A DNA stretch of 64,000 nucleotides from Anaeromyxobacter oryzae (GTDB lineage Bacteria > Myxococcota > Myxococcia > Myxococcales > Anaeromyxobacteraceae), in NCBI RefSeq assembly GCF_023169945.1, contig NZ_AP025591.1:1386501-1450500 (forward strand). The letters are read 5' to 3'. A model generated the notes under the pieces. That model worked only from the letters and a program-made list of their open reading frames with translations, did not search any database and was not told where the DNA came from. Of the stretch, positions 39,688 through 47,965 are shown in pieces. The first letter of the stretch is position 1, and each line of letters opens with the position of its first letter. A program made the position numbers and the translations under genes.

Positions 39688-39900
39688 TCACGCGCGGCCG
39701 CTCGGGCTGCGCAGCGCGGAGAGCTGGTGCAGGGCGCCGACGACGAGCGCCAGCTCCAGCGCGACGCGGGCGCACGCGGCGCACGCCGCGAGGTGGAGCG
39801 TCACGTGCGCGCGCTCGTCCGGGCCGAGCTCGCGGTCGAGGTACTCCGAGAGCTGCGAGCGGACGGCCTCGCACGCGCCGGCAGGCTGGAACGCGAGCAT
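39688..39900 (-). CDS. Stand-alone zf-HC2 zinc-finger protein
   Basis: 70 residues. H36, C40, C43 (HLAACAAC) plus C10 form a putative zinc site; start MLAFQPAGACEAVRSQLSEYLDREL matches the anti-sigma zinc-finger pattern. A hydrophobic tail ALELALVVGALHQLSAL follows, too short to be a sure membrane helix. It is tail-to-tail with the sigma factor gene and may regulate it. Gap to the rhodanese gene, 39901-40021, is GC-rich with no gene. Confidence 0.7.
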   Translation of the reverse strand: MLAFQPAGACEAVRSQLSEYLDRELGPDERAHVTLHLAACAACARVALELALVVGALHQLSALRSPSGRA

Positions 39901-40021: not shown

Positions 40022-40408
40022 TCAGCCCCTCACGACCGGATACCCGCGGCTCAGCCAGTCCGGCATGCCGGCCTGGTAGACGAGCACGTTGCGGTAGCCG
40101 AGCGCGACGGCCGCGACCGCGGCCGAGCGGGAGAGGCTTCAACCCATGCCGCGGCAGTAGAAGACGACCGGCGTCGCCCGGTCGCGCGGCAGCGCCGCGG
40201 ACTGCGCCGTGATCCGGTCCGCGGGGATCCCGAGCGCGCCCGGGATGTGGGCCTCCGCGTACTCCTGCGGCGAGCGCACGTCGACGACGACGGCCCTCCC
40301 GCCGACGAGCAGCGCGTGCACCTCGGGCGCGTCCACCACCCTGAACTCGGCCGGAGCGTTCACCGGCGCGGCCGCGAGCAGCACCGCGATCGTCGTCGAC
40401 AGGACCAT
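40022..40408 (-). CDS. Rhodanese-like protein with in-frame UGA, probable selenoprotein
   Basis: Read through the TGA at 40139-40141, the gene encodes 128 residues. A signal-like N-terminus (STTIAVLLAAAPVNA) precedes VVDVRSPQEYAEAHIPGALGI, active-site VFYCRGMG with C85, then Sec at residue 90, then SLSRSAAVAAVALGYRNVLV, YQAGMPDWL and GYPVV, all in the same frame and typical of the rhodanese C-terminal half. The UGA falls where some family members have a second Cys (YCxGxxC). GAGGAGGGACCC precedes the ATG. A conventional reading stops it at 89 residues, losing the fold. Sulfur or selenium transfer in the periplasm is likely; sequencing error or pseudogene is less likely. Confidence 0.8.
40096..40138 (-). 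promoter_or_regulatory. Candidate bacterial SECIS hairpin
   Basis: Immediately after the UGA on the minus strand, seven-base arms CGGCCGC (40125-40119) and GCGGCCG (40114-40108) enclose loop GGUC. The loop begins 20 bases after the UGA, and its first base is G, both as expected for a bSECIS element. A lower stem AGCC (40138-40135) with GGCU (40099-40096) closes the structure at the UGA. Confidence 0.7.
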
Positions 40409-40546
40409 GGGTCCCTCCTCGGGCCGCGCGACGGCGCGGCGCGACGGTGGGAGCCCGGCGGGGTCGCCGAGGTTCGCGTGCGCCCCCGCGCCAGCGCCGA
40501 ATCCTTCCGCTTCCTCGTGGCTCCCTGGAGAGGGAGACTCCTCCAC

Positions 40547-41200
40547 GTGGCCCTTCCCGGTGATCCCCCGCCTCCGGCGGACCTCCAGCGCGCGCTCGAG
40601 ACGCGCTACGGCGCCCTCGCGGCGACGACGCAGTCGCTGTCGTGCGGCAGCGTGCTCGAGCTCGCGGCGCTCCGGGACGGCGAGACCGTCGTCGACCTCG
40701 GGTGCGGGCGCGGGGGCGACGTGCTCCGCGCCGCGGCGGCGGTCGGCGACCGCGGCGTCGCGATCGGCGTCGACTCGAGCCCCGCGATGATCGCCGCGGC
40801 GCGCGCGCCTTCAGCGGACCGCCACCGCATCCGCTTCCTGCTCGGGGATCTCGCCGCGGTCCCCCTCCCCGACGGGGCCGCCGACGCCGTGGTCTCGAGC
40901 TGCGCCATCAACCACGCTCCGGACAAGCCGGCGGTGTACCGCGAGATCCGGCGCCTGCTCCGGCCCGGTGGACGGTTCGTCGTCGCGGACGTCGTCTCCG
41001 AGCGCCCCCTGCCTGACGCGGTCCGCGGCGATCCCGCCGCCTGGGCGGCGTGCTACGGCGGCGCGATCCCCGAGGCCGACTACCTCGCGGCGATCGCGGG
41101 CGCGGGCCTCGCGGACGTGTCCGTCCTCCGGCGCTCGGCGCCGTACGAGCGCGGCGGGGTCCGCATCCTCTCCATCACCGTCGCGGGCATGCGCCCGTAG
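40547..41200 (+). CDS. ArsM-like SAM methyltransferase
   Basis: 217 residues from GTG 40547 (GTG at 40517 is an alternative). Motif I VVDLGCGRGGDVLRAAAAVG, IGVDSSPAMIAAAR and LLRPGGRFVVADV define the fold. Three cysteines outside motif I, C33 (SLSCGS), C119 (SSCAINHAPDK) and C169 (AACYGGAI), sit in the same contexts as the three As(III)-binding cysteines of ArsM; the 119-169 spacing of 50 equals that of the algal ArsM pair. It may methylate arsenic or another thiophilic element. First gene of the cluster, divergent from the Sec-rhodanese. Confidence 0.75.
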   Translation: MALPGDPPPPADLQRALETRYGALAATTQSLSCGSVLELAALRDGETVVDLGCGRGGDVLRAAAAVGDRGVAIGVDSSPAMIAAARAPSADRHRIRFLLGDLAAVPLPDGAADAVVSSCAINHAPDKPAVYREIRRLLRPGGRFVVADVVSERPLPDAVRGDPAAWAACYGGAIPEADYLAAIAGAGLADVSVLRRSAPYERGGVRILSITVAGMRP

Positions 41201-41217
41201 CGGCTCCCGAGGTCTCG

Positions 41218-42570
41218 ATGCGGCTCTCGCGGTCCACCATCGTCGCGCCGATCCCCGGGACCGCCCGGGCGCTCCTCGTCCAGCCGCTCTCGGGCCAGGC
41301 CGCGGTCGTCGCCGCCGAGGACGCGGCCGCGCTCGCCGGGCTCGCCGGCGGCGGCGCGCTCCCGCCAGCCTTGCCGGAGGAGACGCTGCGGGCGGCCGCG
41401 TTCGTCGTCGACTCGGAGGACGAGGACCGCGCGCTCGAGGCGCGGGCGCGGGCCGACTGGGCGATGGAGGCGGCCCGGACACCCACGCAGCTCGTCGTCG
41501 TCCCGGGCTTCGGCTGCAACCTCGCCTGCACCTACTGCTACCAGGAGCCGTTCGATCCGGCCGCCCGCGCGCTCGTCGCGCCCGAGGTGATCGACGCGTT
41601 CTTCGCGTACGTCGACGCGCGGCACGCGGCCGACGCGCCGCGGCCGTACGTGACGCTGTTCGGCGGCGAGCCGCTCCGGGACACCCCGGCCCACCACGAC
41701 CGGATCGGGAGGTACCTCGACGGCGCGGCGCGGCGCGGCCTCGAGATCGCCGTCGTGACGAACGGCTTCGATCTGGAGGCGTTCCTCCCGGCGCTCGCCG
41801 CCGGACCGGTGAAGGAGGTGCAGGTCACGCTCGACGGCCCCCGGCCCGTCCACGACGCCCGCCGCCCCCACGCGAGCGGCGGCGGCACCTTCGACCGCGT
41901 GGTCGCCGGGATCGAGGGGCTCGTGGCCGCGGGGATCCCGGTGAACCTCCGGGTGGTGGCCGATCGCCGGAACCTCCCCGCGCTGCCCGCCCTCGCCGAG
42001 CTCGCCGCGGCGAAGGGGTGGCTCGAGCTGCCGGCCTCCCGGTTCAAGACGCAGGTCGGCCGCAACTACGAGCTGTTCGGCTGCGCGTCGCGGCAGCGCC
42101 GCGAGGACCTCTTCGATCGCGTCGAGCTGTGGGCGCGGTACCTCGAGCTCGCCGAGGCGCACCCCATCCTCCGGAGGTTCCACCGGCCGCGGTTCCACGG
42201 CCTCGGCCACCTCGCCGAGACGGGCGAGCTCCCGGCGCCGAACTTCGACGCCTGCCCCGCGACGAAGAAGGAGTGGGCGTTCGGACCGGACGGGAGCGTC
42301 TACGGCTGCACCGCGACCGTCGGCCACCCCGCCCACGTGCTCGGCCGCTTCCACCCGGAGATCGTCCTCGACAAGGCGGCGATCGGCGCGTGGCGGAACC
42401 GGAGCACGCTCACCATCCCGCGCTGCCGCGCCTGCGCTCTCGCGCCGGTCTGTGGCGGCGGGTGCGGCGCCATCGCCTGGGATCAGGCCGCGACGCCGCT
42501 CGCGCCGGACTGCCGGCCCGTCGTGGAGCTGTACGGGATCGGCGCGCGGTACCACGGCCTCGACACATGA
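41218..42570 (+). CDS. Radical SAM/SPASM-domain enzyme
   Basis: 450 residues. Radical SAM CxxxCxxC at C100, C104, C107 (CNLACTYCY), GGEPL as TLFGGEPLRD, and a full SPASM end: CPATKKEWAFGPDGSVYGC, then CRACALAPVCGGGC and a last Cys in LAPDCRP, enough for two auxiliary clusters. SPASM enzymes usually modify peptides or proteins. The N-terminal 95 residues precede the barrel and may be a recognition domain. 17 bases after the methyltransferase, overlapping DUF5714 by four. Substrate unknown; small Cys-rich products downstream are candidates. Confidence 0.85.
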   Translation: MRLSRSTIVAPIPGTARALLVQPLSGQAAVVAAEDAAALAGLAGGGALPPALPEETLRAAAFVVDSEDEDRALEARARADWAMEAARTPTQLVVVPGFGCNLACTYCYQEPFDPAARALVAPEVIDAFFAYVDARHAADAPRPYVTLFGGEPLRDTPAHHDRIGRYLDGAARRGLEIAVVTNGFDLEAFLPALAAGPVKEVQVTLDGPRPVHDARRPHASGGGTFDRVVAGIEGLVAAGIPVNLRVVADRRNLPALPALAELAAAKGWLELPASRFKTQVGRNYELFGCASRQRREDLFDRVELWARYLELAEAHPILRRFHRPRFHGLGHLAETGELPAPNFDACPATKKEWAFGPDGSVYGCTATVGHPAHVLGRFHPEIVLDKAAIGAWRNRSTLTIPRCRACALAPVCGGGCGAIAWDQAATPLAPDCRPVVELYGIGARYHGLDT

Positions 42571-43289
42571 GCCTCCTCGCGCCGGAGCATCGCAGCGGGT
42601 GCCTCGTGTGCGGGGCGGCGCTCGAGTACCTCGCGGCCGCCGAGCCGATGGCGTGCGTGGGCTGCGGCGCGCCCGCCCTGAGCACCGCGCGCTGCCGCGC
42701 CGGGCACTTCGTGTGCGACACCTGCCACTCCGCGTCCGCGAAGGACGTGATCGAGCGGGCCTGCGCCGGGACGGCGAGCACCGACCCGCTCGCGATCTCC
42801 CGCGAGCTGATGCGACACCCGAAGCTGAAGATGCACGGGCCGGAGCACCACCTCCTCGTCCCCGCCGCCTTCCTCGCGGCGCTCGCCAACGCGCGCGGCG
42901 AGCCCGGCGAGAAGCCCCGCCTCGTCGCCGAGGCACGCCGGCGCTCGGATCCCGTCGCGGGCGGCTTCTGCGGGTTCCAGGGCGCGTGCGGCGCGGCCAT
43001 CGGCGCCGGCATCGCCGTGAGCCTCGCGACCGGCGCGACGCCGCTCTCGACGCAGCCCTGGCGCCTCGCCAACGCCGCCACGGCCCGGGCGCTCGACGTC
43101 GTTTCCCGCGTGGGCGGCCCCCGCTGCTGCAAGCGCGACACCTGGCTCGTGCTCCTCGCCCTCGTCCGCTTCGCGCGCGAGCACCTCGGGGTCGCGCTCG
43201 GCGGGCGCGGCGAGCCGTGCACGTTCGGCGGCCTGAACGCGGAGTGCCTCGCGGACCGGTGTCCGTTCCACCCGCGCCCGGCGCGCTGA
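42567..43289 (+). CDS. DUF5714 family Cys-rich protein
   Basis: 240 residues. N-terminal metal-site pairs (CLVCG, CVGCG, CRAGHFVCDTCH) are followed by the DUF5714 core: ELMRHPKLKMHGPEHHLLVPAAFLAAL, GGFCGFQGACGAAIGAGIAVSLATGATPLS, VGGPRCCKRDTWLVLLAL and a final CLADRCPF. Typical of anaerobes and methanogens, where similar proteins lie by methyltransferase and radical SAM genes. Function undescribed to my knowledge. ATG overlaps the SPASM enzyme stop. Confidence 0.85.
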   Translation: MSLLAPEHRSGCLVCGAALEYLAAAEPMACVGCGAPALSTARCRAGHFVCDTCHSASAKDVIERACAGTASTDPLAISRELMRHPKLKMHGPEHHLLVPAAFLAALANARGEPGEKPRLVAEARRRSDPVAGGFCGFQGACGAAIGAGIAVSLATGATPLSTQPWRLANAATARALDVVSRVGGPRCCKRDTWLVLLALVRFAREHLGVALGGRGEPCTFGGLNAECLADRCPFHPRPAR

Positions 43290-43433
43290 GCCCTCGCCGC
43301 GGCGTCCCGACGCCCGATCGGCCCCTGGGTGCCTCCTCGTGGCCCGGTGCGGCGCCGTGCCGCGAACCCGATCTCTCCCGGACGGCTCGTACCGGACGGC
43401 GCGAGGATCGTCGGCACCTTCCTGGAGGAGACC

Positions 43434-43619
43434 ATGACTTCCCTCGCTGGACCGATGCATCTGGACCTGTCCGCCAAGGAGGTCCGGATCCTGGTGCAGT
43501 CGCTCGGCAACTGCCTCGCGACCTGCCAGACCCACGCGGTGAAGCCCGACGCACCGTGCGAGGACTGCGATGCGGCGCGCGCCCTGAAGCAGAAGCTCGA
43601 GTCCCACCTCGAACGATGA
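43434..43619 (+). CDS. Small helical four-Cys protein
   Basis: 61 residues. Two predicted helices (LSAKEVRILVQSLGN and ARALKQKLESHLER) join through a segment holding four cysteines, CLATC and [16 protein letters not shown] precedes the ATG. Family not recognised; could be a metal carrier or a substrate of the upstream radical SAM enzyme. The 144-base gap after DUF5714 leaves room for its own promoter. Confidence 0.65.
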   Translation: MTSLAGPMHLDLSAKEVRILVQSLGNCLATCQTHAVKPDAPCEDCDAARALKQKLESHLER

Positions 43620-43630
43620 AGGAGAGCGCG

Positions 43631-43732
43631 ATGAAGCTCCTCACCACGCTCAAGAAGACGTGCTGCGCACCGGAGAAGGCGGCGCAGTGCTGTGCGAAGG
43701 CGTCCCGGCTCGTGTCGGGCTGCCACGACTGA
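43631..43732 (+). CDS. 33-residue Cys-rich peptide
   Basis: The ATG at 43631 has AAGGAG seven bases upstream, beginning right at the stop of the preceding gene; an ATG at 43616 in the same frame would add five residues. Lys-rich start (MKLLTTLKKT) then CC, CC and a lone C (TCCAPEKAAQCCAKASRLVSGC). Five cysteines in 33 residues. Could be a ribosomal-peptide precursor, metal-binding peptide or redox partner. Short, so coding status rests on its ribosome binding site and Cys pattern. Confidence 0.55.
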   Translation: MKLLTTLKKTCCAPEKAAQCCAKASRLVSGCHD

Positions 43733-43825: not shown

Positions 43826-44161
43826 ATGTCCACGTTCGTCGAGGAGATCGCCGCCACCGACTACGACCGCAAGGTGCTCGGCGCCGAGACGCCGGTGGTG
43901 CTCGACTTCTTCTCCACCGAGTGCCCGCCGTGCGAGGCGCTCGCGCCCAAGTACGAAGCCGTCGCGGAGCAGTTCGCCGGGAAGGTGCGCTTCCTCAAGA
44001 TCTTCCGGCAGGGGAACCGCGAGCTCGCGACCCGGCTCGGCGTCAGCGGCAGCCCCACCCTGCTGTTCTTCCGCGGCGGCCGCGAGGTGGCGCAGCGGAT
44101 GAGCGGGGAGGACATCAAGCGCTCCGCCCTGAAGGCCACCGTCGAGTCGCTGCTCGCGTAG
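43826..44161 (+). CDS. Thioredoxin
   Basis: 111 residues. Active site CPPC at C33, C36 (FFSTECPPCEALAPKYEAVAEQF), cis-Pro segment VSGSPTLLFFRGG. The CPPC variant differs from the usual CGPC and suggests a shifted redox potential. GGAGG ribosome binding site. Twelve bases upstream of a thioredoxin reductase gene, so they form a pair, probably reducing protein or small-molecule disulfides made by the upstream cluster. Confidence 0.88.
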   Translation: MSTFVEEIAATDYDRKVLGAETPVVLDFFSTECPPCEALAPKYEAVAEQFAGKVRFLKIFRQGNRELATRLGVSGSPTLLFFRGGREVAQRMSGEDIKRSALKATVESLLA

Positions 44162-44173
44162 CGGGGGGATCCC

Positions 44174-45094
44174 ATGGCCGAACGTCACGACGTCGTCGTC
44201 ATCGGAGCGGGGCCCGCCGGCCTCACCGCCGCCATCTACGCCGCCCGCGCCCGGCTCCGCACGCTGGTCGTCGACGAGAGCATCCCCGGCGGGCAGGTGA
44301 AGACCACGCACAAGGTCTCGAACTATCCGGGGTTCCCCGAGGACATCAAGGGATCGGAGCTCGCGGCGGCGTTCGCGGCCCAGGCCGAGCGCTTCGGCGC
44401 GAGGATCCGCCGCGCCGTCGAGATCACGGCGCACGACCTCGCCGGCCCGGTGAAGACCCTCGAGCTCGACGAGGAGGAGACGATCGAGGCGCGCGCCGTC
44501 ATCGTCGCCACCGGCGCGAAGCCGCGCCCGCTCGGCGTGCCCGGCGAGGACGTCTTCAAGGGTCGCGGGATCTCGTACTGCGCGACCTGCGACGGCGCTT
44601 ACTTCGAGGGGAAGGACATCCACGTGATCGGCGGCGGGAACTCCGCGGTCGAGGAGTCGCTGTTCCTCACGCAGTTCGCGCGGAGCGTGACCATCGTCCA
44701 CCAGTTCCACGAGTTCCAGGCCGAGCCTTCGTCGGCGCAGGAGGCGCTCTCGAACCCGAAGATCCGCGTCCTCTTCGGGCACGAGCCGCGCGGCTTCCAC
44801 GGCGAGACCGCCCTCGAGCGCCTCGAGGTGGAGGAGCTCCGGACGAAGGAGCGGAAGCAGCTCCGGACGGACGGCGTCTTCGTCTTCATCGGGATGGTGC
44901 CCCGCACCGACCTGCTGGCGCGGTACGTCGAGCTCGCGCCCGGCGGGTACGTCGAGACGACGGACGGGATGGAGACGAAGGTGCCGGGCCTCTACGCCGC
45001 CGGCGACATCCGGGTGAAGCGCTTCCGGCAGATCACGACCGCCGTCGCCGACGGGACGATCGCCGCGCTCGCGGCGCAGAAGTACCTGCGCTGA
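44174..45094 (+). CDS. trxB: Thioredoxin reductase
   Basis: 306 residues. FAD motif VVIGAGPAGLTAAIYAARA, redox CATC at C136, C139 (SYCATCDGAYFEGKD), NADPH motif VIGGGNSAVEESLFL and the C-terminal YAAGDIRVKRFRQITTAVADGTIAA. Reduces the adjacent CPPC thioredoxin. Low-molecular-weight bacterial type. A terminator-like palindrome follows the stop by ten bases. Confidence 0.93.
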   Translation: MAERHDVVVIGAGPAGLTAAIYAARARLRTLVVDESIPGGQVKTTHKVSNYPGFPEDIKGSELAAAFAAQAERFGARIRRAVEITAHDLAGPVKTLELDEEETIEARAVIVATGAKPRPLGVPGEDVFKGRGISYCATCDGAYFEGKDIHVIGGGNSAVEESLFLTQFARSVTIVHQFHEFQAEPSSAQEALSNPKIRVLFGHEPRGFHGETALERLEVEELRTKERKQLRTDGVFVFIGMVPRTDLLARYVELAPGGYVETTDGMETKVPGLYAAGDIRVKRFRQITTAVADGTIAALAAQKYLR

Positions 45095-46798: not shown

Positions 46799-47965
46799 AT
46801 GGCCAGGCACGTCCTCGTCCTCGGCGGCGGCTTCGCCGCCCTCGAGTCCGCCATCCAGCTGCGGAAGGCCGGGCTCGACGTCACCCTCGTCTCGAATCGC
46901 CCCTACCTGTTCGTCTACCCGACCTCGATCTGGGTCGCGACCGGCGAGCGGGCGTTCCCGGAGGTCTGCCTCGACCTCGGGGAGGTGGCCCGGCGCCACG
47001 GGTTCGCGTTCGTCGAGGGCGCGGTCGAGGCGGTCTCGGGCGCTCGCCGCGAGGCGGTCGTCGGGGGCCGGACGCTCTCGGGCGATCACCTGGTCGTCGC
47101 GCTCGGCGGCGAGCGGCTCCGCCCGAAGGGCGTCGAGCACACGCACTCGCTCGGCGGCGCGCCCGAGAACGCGGTCCGGCTGCACGACGCGCTCGACGCG
47201 CTGATCGCGAAGGGCGCGGGCCGGATCGCGATGGGGTTCGGCGGGAACCCGAAGGATCCGTCGGCGGTCCGCGGCGGTCCGGTGTTCGAGCTCATGTTCA
47301 ACGTGGACACGCTGCTCAGGCGGCGCGGGGTCCGCGATCGCTTCGAGCTGACGTTCTTCGCGCCGATGGCGAGCCCCGGCGCGCGGATGGGCGACAAGGC
47401 CGTCGCCGCCATCCAGGAGATGTTCGGCCGGCGCGGGATCGCGCTCCGCGCCGGCAAGAAGATCGCCGGGTTCGCGCCGGAGGGCGTCTCGTTCGAGGAC
47501 GGCTCGCGCCTCGACGCGGACCTGGTCGTCTTCCTCCCGGCCGGTGACGGGCACCCGGTCGTGAAGGCCTCCGACCTGCCGACGAACGAGGCGGGCTTCG
47601 TCCGGATCGACGGCGGCTGCGCCGTCCACGGCCACGAGAACGTCTGGGCGATCGGGGACGCCGCGGCGCTCGAGGGCCCGGAGTGGCGGGCGAAGCAGGG
47701 CCACCTCGCCGAGGTGATGGCGCGCGTCGCGGCGACGAACATCGCCGCGGTCGAGGCCGGCCGTGCGGAGCGGGCCAGCTACCTCCCGGAGATCGGGATC
47801 ACCTGCCTCCTCGACATGGGGAACGGCGCCGCGTATGTCCACCGCGACGCGGAGCGACAGCAGCTCGTCCCGCTGCCGGTCGTCGGGCACTGGCTGAAGC
47901 AGGGCTGGGGCGCGTACTTCAAGCTGTCGAAGCTGCGGCGCATTCCGCGCCTGCCGGGGATGTGA
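46799..47965 (+). CDS. SQR-like FAD/NAD oxidoreductase
   Basis: 388 residues. FAD motif HVLVLGGGFAALESAIQLRKA, second nucleotide region, GGPVFELMFNVDTLLRR and FAD-closing VWAIGDAAALEG followed by KQGHLAEVMARVAATN. Overall like sulfide:quinone oxidoreductase or type II NADH dehydrogenase. Cysteines are few (in PEVCLDLG, GGCAVHG, ITCLLDMGNGA), so classic SQR chemistry is uncertain. Followed by a conserved-looking membrane peptide. Confidence 0.72.
   Translation: MARHVLVLGGGFAALESAIQLRKAGLDVTLVSNRPYLFVYPTSIWVATGERAFPEVCLDLGEVARRHGFAFVEGAVEAVSGARREAVVGGRTLSGDHLVVALGGERLRPKGVEHTHSLGGAPENAVRLHDALDALIAKGAGRIAMGFGGNPKDPSAVRGGPVFELMFNVDTLLRRRGVRDRFELTFFAPMASPGARMGDKAVAAIQEMFGRRGIALRAGKKIAGFAPEGVSFEDGSRLDADLVVFLPAGDGHPVVKASDLPTNEAGFVRIDGGCAVHGHENVWAIGDAAALEGPEWRAKQGHLAEVMARVAATNIAAVEAGRAERASYLPEIGITCLLDMGNGAAYVHRDAERQQLVPLPVVGHWLKQGWGAYFKLSKLRRIPRLPGM

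Follow-up and report, generated by a model that had tools for sequence, protein, structure and literature searches.

The DNA analysed here, which we call the window, is a stretch of 64,000 nucleotides (C1:1386501-1450500) from the 6.72 Mb single-contig genome of Anaeromyxobacter oryzae. On its minus strand, at 40022-40408, lies a gene for a rhodanese of 128 residues, which runs from an ATG at 40408-40406 through an in-frame UGA at 40141-40139 (codon 90) to a TGA stop at 40024-40022. These are the coordinates that an original prediction, made from the DNA letters, had given without saying on which strand the gene lies. Inspection of the sequence places an AGGAGG ribosome-binding site at 40414-40419 on the same strand, 5 nt upstream of the ATG. 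The first codons (40355-40408, minus strand) encode a hydrophobic segment with no Lys or Arg inside it, which is a probable signal peptide and the least certain region of the structure model (pLDDT 65-71). No basic residue precedes the hydrophobic stretch either here or in the homolog from genome G015. The rhodanese is probably exported or periplasmic, as far as its N-terminus can tell.

A conventional ORF call ends at C-R-G-M-G-stop, and the same frame then continues for 38 sense codons. The expectation that these additional residues complete a rhodanese domain is borne out by Pfam, whose Rhodanese entry (PF00581) covers residues 27-120 of the read-through protein (1.8e-18, 67.3 bits against a gathering score of 22.2). 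An AlphaFold2 model in which Cys replaces Sec has a mean pLDDT of 93.1 across the read-through protein, and it predicts a helix (92-102), a strand (108-111) and a second helix (114-120) beyond the UGA; since these elements follow the UGA, a product of 89 residues would be expected to lose the end of the fold. The UGA stands five residues past Cys85 (TGC, 40154-40156, minus strand), taken as the active-site cysteine from its catalytic role in the rhodanese family, and the loop has the motif C85-x4-U90-x2-S93 (U90-S-L-S93).

Downstream of the rhodanese, also on the minus strand, is a zinc-finger anti-sigma factor (39688-39900; PF13490, 8.4e-11), which has counterparts close to the rhodaneses of G015 and G027. 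Divergent from the rhodanese, on the plus strand, is an ArsM-like methyltransferase (40544-41197), and the same strand carries a radical SAM/SPASM protein that resembles peptide maturases (41215-42570), a DUF5714 protein (42567-43289; PF18978, 3.8e-57), a thioredoxin and thioredoxin-reductase-like pair (43826-45094) and an FAD-dependent pyridine-nucleotide-disulfide oxidoreductase (46799-47965; PF07992) that looks, by eye, like a sulfide:quinone reductase. The plus-strand stretch 40544-43732, which holds the methyltransferase, the radical SAM/SPASM and DUF5714 proteins and two small Cys-containing ORFs (43434-43619 and 43616-43732), is a possible uncharacterised maturation cluster. The DUF5714 protein additionally matches the model of a double selenoprotein, MbdU (3.6e-41; 141.5 bits against a cut-off of 600), and is encoded by an uninterrupted ORF of 240 amino acids.

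We compared the neighbourhood of the rhodanese in 10 loci using 12 query proteins. The window and G015 have in common TolC, an ECF sigma factor, the anti-sigma factor, the rhodanese, the ArsM-like methyltransferase, the radical SAM/SPASM protein, the DUF5714 protein, thioredoxin and thioredoxin reductase. A 6.6 kb contig of G027, whose rhodanese is of the Cys type, shares the anti-sigma factor, the rhodanese, the methyltransferase, the radical SAM protein, the FAD oxidoreductase (71% identical), a small ORF and part of the reductase. The other eight loci had no shared neighbour at 1e-8 apart from a 37% methyltransferase match in L178. The neighbourhood is therefore not general to the group, and it is weak evidence on function.

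The genome contains all four components of the selenocysteine pathway that the original prediction had proposed to look for, namely selA (525 bits), selB (312 bits, above its cut-off), selD (382 bits, itself with a single UGA, whose context is GUACK) and tRNA-Sec (76.9 bits; anticodon tca according to ARAGORN). SelB and tRNA-Sec would insert selenocysteine at UGA90, helped by a bSECIS hairpin just downstream. Across the order, SelA was found in 128 of 145 genomes, so its presence discriminates poorly between Sec and Cys types. It occurs in 34 of the 35 genomes with a UGA-bearing match among the matches listed, the exception being G002, which is 61% complete; G049, 80% complete, also has a UGA match among those listed and no SelA match. 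G027 has SelA together with a Cys rhodanese, so a genome can keep the pathway and still have Cys at this position. SelA was not matched in G008 or G009, whose Cys rhodaneses sit within a mostly Sec clade, which fits a loss of Sec.

A search of the 145 genomes with the read-through protein gave, among the matches listed, homologs in G015 (77% identity), G016 (59%), G020 (58%) and G017 (55%), as well as in G013, G014, G018 and G084 at about 42% identity, each with a single internal TGA. The close homologs with named records are L047 from Anaeromyxobacter soli SG29 and L053 from Anaeromyxobacter sp. PSR-1. Relatives with the same loop have either Sec or Cys at residue 90, in agreement with the Cys homologs anticipated at the outset. 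Cys occupies the position in L021 (from G027, 48% identity), in L024 and in L046, a locus from a Nitrospirae MAG with 50% identity. We translated 30 of 80 homolog loci and, by eye, found 17 with C-x4-(C or U), comprising 15 Cys and 2 Sec, and 13 rhodaneses without the second residue. The genome of the window has a second rhodanese gene (L153, C1:6299594-6299935) with one in-frame TGA, the context FYCKNTYUTASH and a bSECIS-like hairpin of -17.0 kcal/mol.

The motif extends well beyond the order, and C-x4-U rhodaneses were seen in Myxococcota, in relatives of a Desulfobulbaceae MAG and in a Nitrospirota MAG, where locus L215 reads FYCRGVGU. In the phylum of the Desulfobulbaceae MAG, which we take to be Desulfobacterota, 190 of 395 genomes match at 1e-18, and the best 30 of these 190 matches all have the motif (TGA in 12, Cys in 18). 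Every one of 44 aligned rows, which were picked for the motif, has C85 and either Sec or Cys at position 90. In a tree of 75 homologs (39 Sec, 36 Cys), likewise picked for the motif and built from 122 columns with column 90 kept as Cys in every row, we count 13 Sec/Cys changes, of which the starred branches force at least 7; 19 of the 72 inner branches are open.

The codons that follow the UGA appear to be constrained. Between the window gene and G015, the 38 downstream codons have a Ka of 0.099 and a Ks of 0.36, and similar values were obtained for G016 against G017 (0.05 and 0.321) and against G020 (0.088 and 0.331). More distant pairs are less telling, such as the window gene against G016 (0.366 and 0.54), and the downstream stretches of G013, G014 and G018 have too few differences to inform Ka/Ks. 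Upstream of the UGA, constraint between the window gene and G015 is weaker than downstream (0.165 and 0.244). Judged by these substitution rates, the coding sequence 3' of the UGA is under selection, as expected of a bacterial selenoprotein. The competing explanation, an ordinary stop at the UGA and with it a rhodanese that is decayed or truncated at 89 residues, agrees with where a mechanical ORF call ends, but the frame beyond the UGA shows Ka below Ks and is conserved, it completes the fold, and the same UGA recurs in several genomes at 55-77% identity among the matches listed. We consider this explanation very improbable.

A bSECIS-like hairpin, CGGCCGC-GGUC-GCGGCCG, lies at 40108-40125 on the minus strand, with the loop GGUC at 40118-40115. 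The original prediction had described a hairpin with this loop starting 20 bases after the UGA; the hairpin is indeed present, but the 20 nt lead to the start of its apical loop and not to the start of the hairpin. In its accessible text, a 2026 review (PMC13188914) gives a bSECIS model with a loop of 3-9 nt, a stem of 4-16 bp, a G in the first two loop positions, a spacing of 16-37 nt and an MFE of at most -7.5 kcal/mol. We coded these constraints from that text, scoring continuous stems only, and the window gene conforms to them (loop 4 nt, stem 7 bp, GG, 20 nt, -14.1 kcal/mol). We rejected the hairpin as stand-alone evidence because, in five genes of the window, 27.6% of 1630 background codons are also followed by a hairpin that passes the -7.5 cut-off (6.7% at -12 kcal/mol or below). 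The stretch is GC-rich, and hairpins are common in GC-rich DNA. A lone hairpin is thus weak, yet it becomes convincing because the comparison across homologs contrasts Sec with Cys genes.

For this comparison, we started from 250 profile hits, of which 83 lacked the motif. Once identical downstream stretches had been merged and hits too close to a locus end omitted, there were 137 distinct motif genes, comprising 52 C-x4-U, 84 C-x4-C and 1 U-x4-U. The bSECIS model is passed by 48 of the 52 Sec genes versus 14 of the 84 Cys genes, a set that takes in more distant rhodaneses, and a threshold of -10 kcal/mol retains 42 and 4, respectively. The four Sec genes that fail (L189, L201, L208 and L215) have hairpins of 5-6 bp with a loop of GGUC or GGC at 20-22 nt and energies of -4.9 to -7.3 kcal/mol. 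Two near relatives of the window gene, L021 and L046, are of the Cys type and pass as well; L021, which lies in the partly shared neighbourhood, has a hairpin of -14.9 kcal/mol with the loop AGCGA.

Pairing was also scored in a closer subset, with each row assigned to whichever of two fixed stem registers pairs better. The mean paired fraction is 0.966 in 39 Sec rows versus 0.687 in 36 Cys rows, and 37/39 versus 9/36 rows are at least 5/6 paired. In the first register, 33 Sec sequences (31 distinct) have 96.3% of cells paired, a value that is partly by construction because the rows were entered for their pairing (31 with at least 6/7 pairs, 2 with 5). The two-sided changes, found in four of the seven pairs, are better evidence. 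Of five measures for this register, four lay beyond all 500 shuffles and one was reached in a single shuffle, and slid controls were at most 61.3% paired. The window gene falls in the second register, which is weaker because it has only six rows and because its two-sided pairs were matched by 299 of 500 shuffles; it is 85.7% paired (5/500 shuffles as high), and its covariation score was reached by 0/500.

Of the 52 Sec genes, 20 have CGT as the eighth codon past the UGA and none has CGC, and the 173 Arg codons of the five window genes include 2 CGT and 96 CGC. In the 84 Cys genes, the eighth codon is CGC seven times, with CGT outside the 25 commonest codons (80 rows). CGT would place G and U in the loop, seemingly at a cost in codon usage. 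Because the stem arms overlap conserved Ala codons, some of the pairing may be dictated by the amino acids, for which the Cys homologs are a partial control.

Taken together, the presence of the machinery, the conservation of the UGA, the Cys found at the same column and the hairpin contrast uphold the original reading of a Sec-rhodanese, and on this comparative evidence it is highly probable that UGA90 is read as selenocysteine. A sequencing error for TGC, to which the Cys of relatives at this position might point, can be dismissed as very unlikely, as the original prediction's own caveat is answered by TGA at the identical codon in other, separate genomes and by the model-conforming hairpins of nearly all distinct genes of this kind.

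What the protein does can be proposed more tentatively. C85, the usual rhodanese nucleophile, would carry a persulfide, which U90, in the enlarged loop, would attack, so that sulfide is released or the sulfur passed on. This would leave a C85-U90 selenenylsulfide for a thioredoxin-like system to reduce. We favour this mechanism as a possibility because C85 and C/U90 are invariant in the 44 rows, because a TsoB-like protein has Sec at both positions and because a thioredoxin and its reductase are encoded nearby. We have not adopted that pair as the physiological partner, as neither protein shows a sign of export and their location would not match that of an exported rhodanese.

The roles of the two residues might instead be exchanged, with U90 as a chalcogen carrier, for a perselenide or a bound metalloid, and C85 as the resolving residue. 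Sec is generally the better nucleophile, and the ArsM-like methyltransferase, radical SAM and DUF5714 proteins in the neighbourhood would suit such a role; C85, however, aligns with the usual catalytic Cys and is invariant in the motif-selected rows, and the TsoB-like protein has Sec at the C85 position. We regard the exchange as unlikely. It is also rather doubtful that the Sec-rhodanese has given up sulfur transfer and is a thiol/selenol-disulfide oxidoreductase or a peroxidase on a rhodanese fold. In TsoB, a related rhodanese domain with U-x4-U is fused to a part that resembles DsbD, and DsbD handles electrons, but the window protein is a single domain without that part. Returning to C85 as persulfide carrier and U90 as resolving residue, a wider view, which we put forward somewhat speculatively, is that C-x4-U rhodaneses are a large, old group in which an enlarged active-site loop may set a selenol next to the catalytic Cys and convert a plain sulfur carrier into a redox-cycling enzyme of the cell envelope, with persulfides or polysulfides as the substrates that it reduces; at the resolving position, Sec and Cys would have been exchanged many times.

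Reviews from 2022 and 2026 (PMC9312934, PMC13188914) tabulate, in their accessible text, several rhodanese selenoproteins. The 2026 table gives form 1 as UxxS, form 2 as UxxG, form 3 as CxU, form 4 as UxxG and form 5, TsoB, as UxxxxU (PMC13188914, accessible part). As these include TsoB, with Sec at the position discussed here, the kind is already known, if little studied. Our literature search found no CxxxxU rhodanese and no published function for the C-x4-U/C group. Combining rhodanese and selenoprotein with Anaeromyxobacter led only to a 2006 survey, and with Myxococc only to a soil paper that is unrelated by its title. The accessible table of the 2006 survey has 11 selenoproteins for Anaeromyxobacter dehalogenans, no rhodanese among them, and the available portion of deep-Sep (PMC12013277) has no mention of sulfurtransferase or Anaeromyxobacter. 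To this known kind, the analysis adds one member, the evidence on its SECIS and a view of how broad the C-x4-U group is. They provide a well-supported selenoprotein gene in a lineage whose printed 2006 list, as far as accessible, had no rhodanese, a bSECIS placed by comparative evidence, and a broad C-x4-U/C group with repeated Sec/Cys exchange. Sec and Cys versions occur as natural pairs, one of which shares part of its neighbourhood, and they make it directly testable what Sec adds to a rhodanese.

Among known families, 16 NCBIfam models match the window protein and none of the 16 reaches its cut-off. The best by E-value is TsoB (NF045694, UxxxxU; 1.9e-17, profile 42-157), and in a TsoB-like protein, L213 (G539:C40), the loop FYU-AGLT-U-VRS has its second Sec aligned with U90. 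Beyond the rhodanese domain with its FYUAGLTU, L213 continues into a long part that resembles a membrane protein and contains a CTPC motif. Unlike the window protein, which has Cys85 and a single domain, TsoB also has Sec at the place of the catalytic Cys as well as a DsbD-like part; scoring 62.6 bits where the cut-off is 805, the window protein was not assigned to it. Form 3, or rhodanese_LYCAU (NF041203, CxU), similarly has Sec shortly after the active-site Cys of a rhodanese, but the spacing here is C-x4-U rather than C-x-U, and the score of 45.1 bits lies below the cut-off of 115.

The structure model superposes on BH2092 of Bacillus halodurans (3nhv_D) with an rmsd of 1.4 A at 28% identity, ranking third after two matches to the longer 6mxv. 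BH2092 (PDB 3nhv, 3o3w) has a C-x4-C loop, YCWGPAC, whose first Cys aligns with C85 in a profile alignment, and it has Cys where the window protein has Sec. The reference for form 1 is a PF00581 protein with UxxS, WP_010941598.1 (PMC9312934 and PMC13188914, accessible text). Form 1, as described there, and the window protein both have a rhodanese domain, one Sec and Sec-x-x-Ser. At the place of S93, the 52 distinct C-x4-U genes encode Ser in 36 cases, Cys in 11, Thr in 4 and Ala in 1. Compared by motif only, the window rhodanese likely belongs to the same subfamily as form 1.
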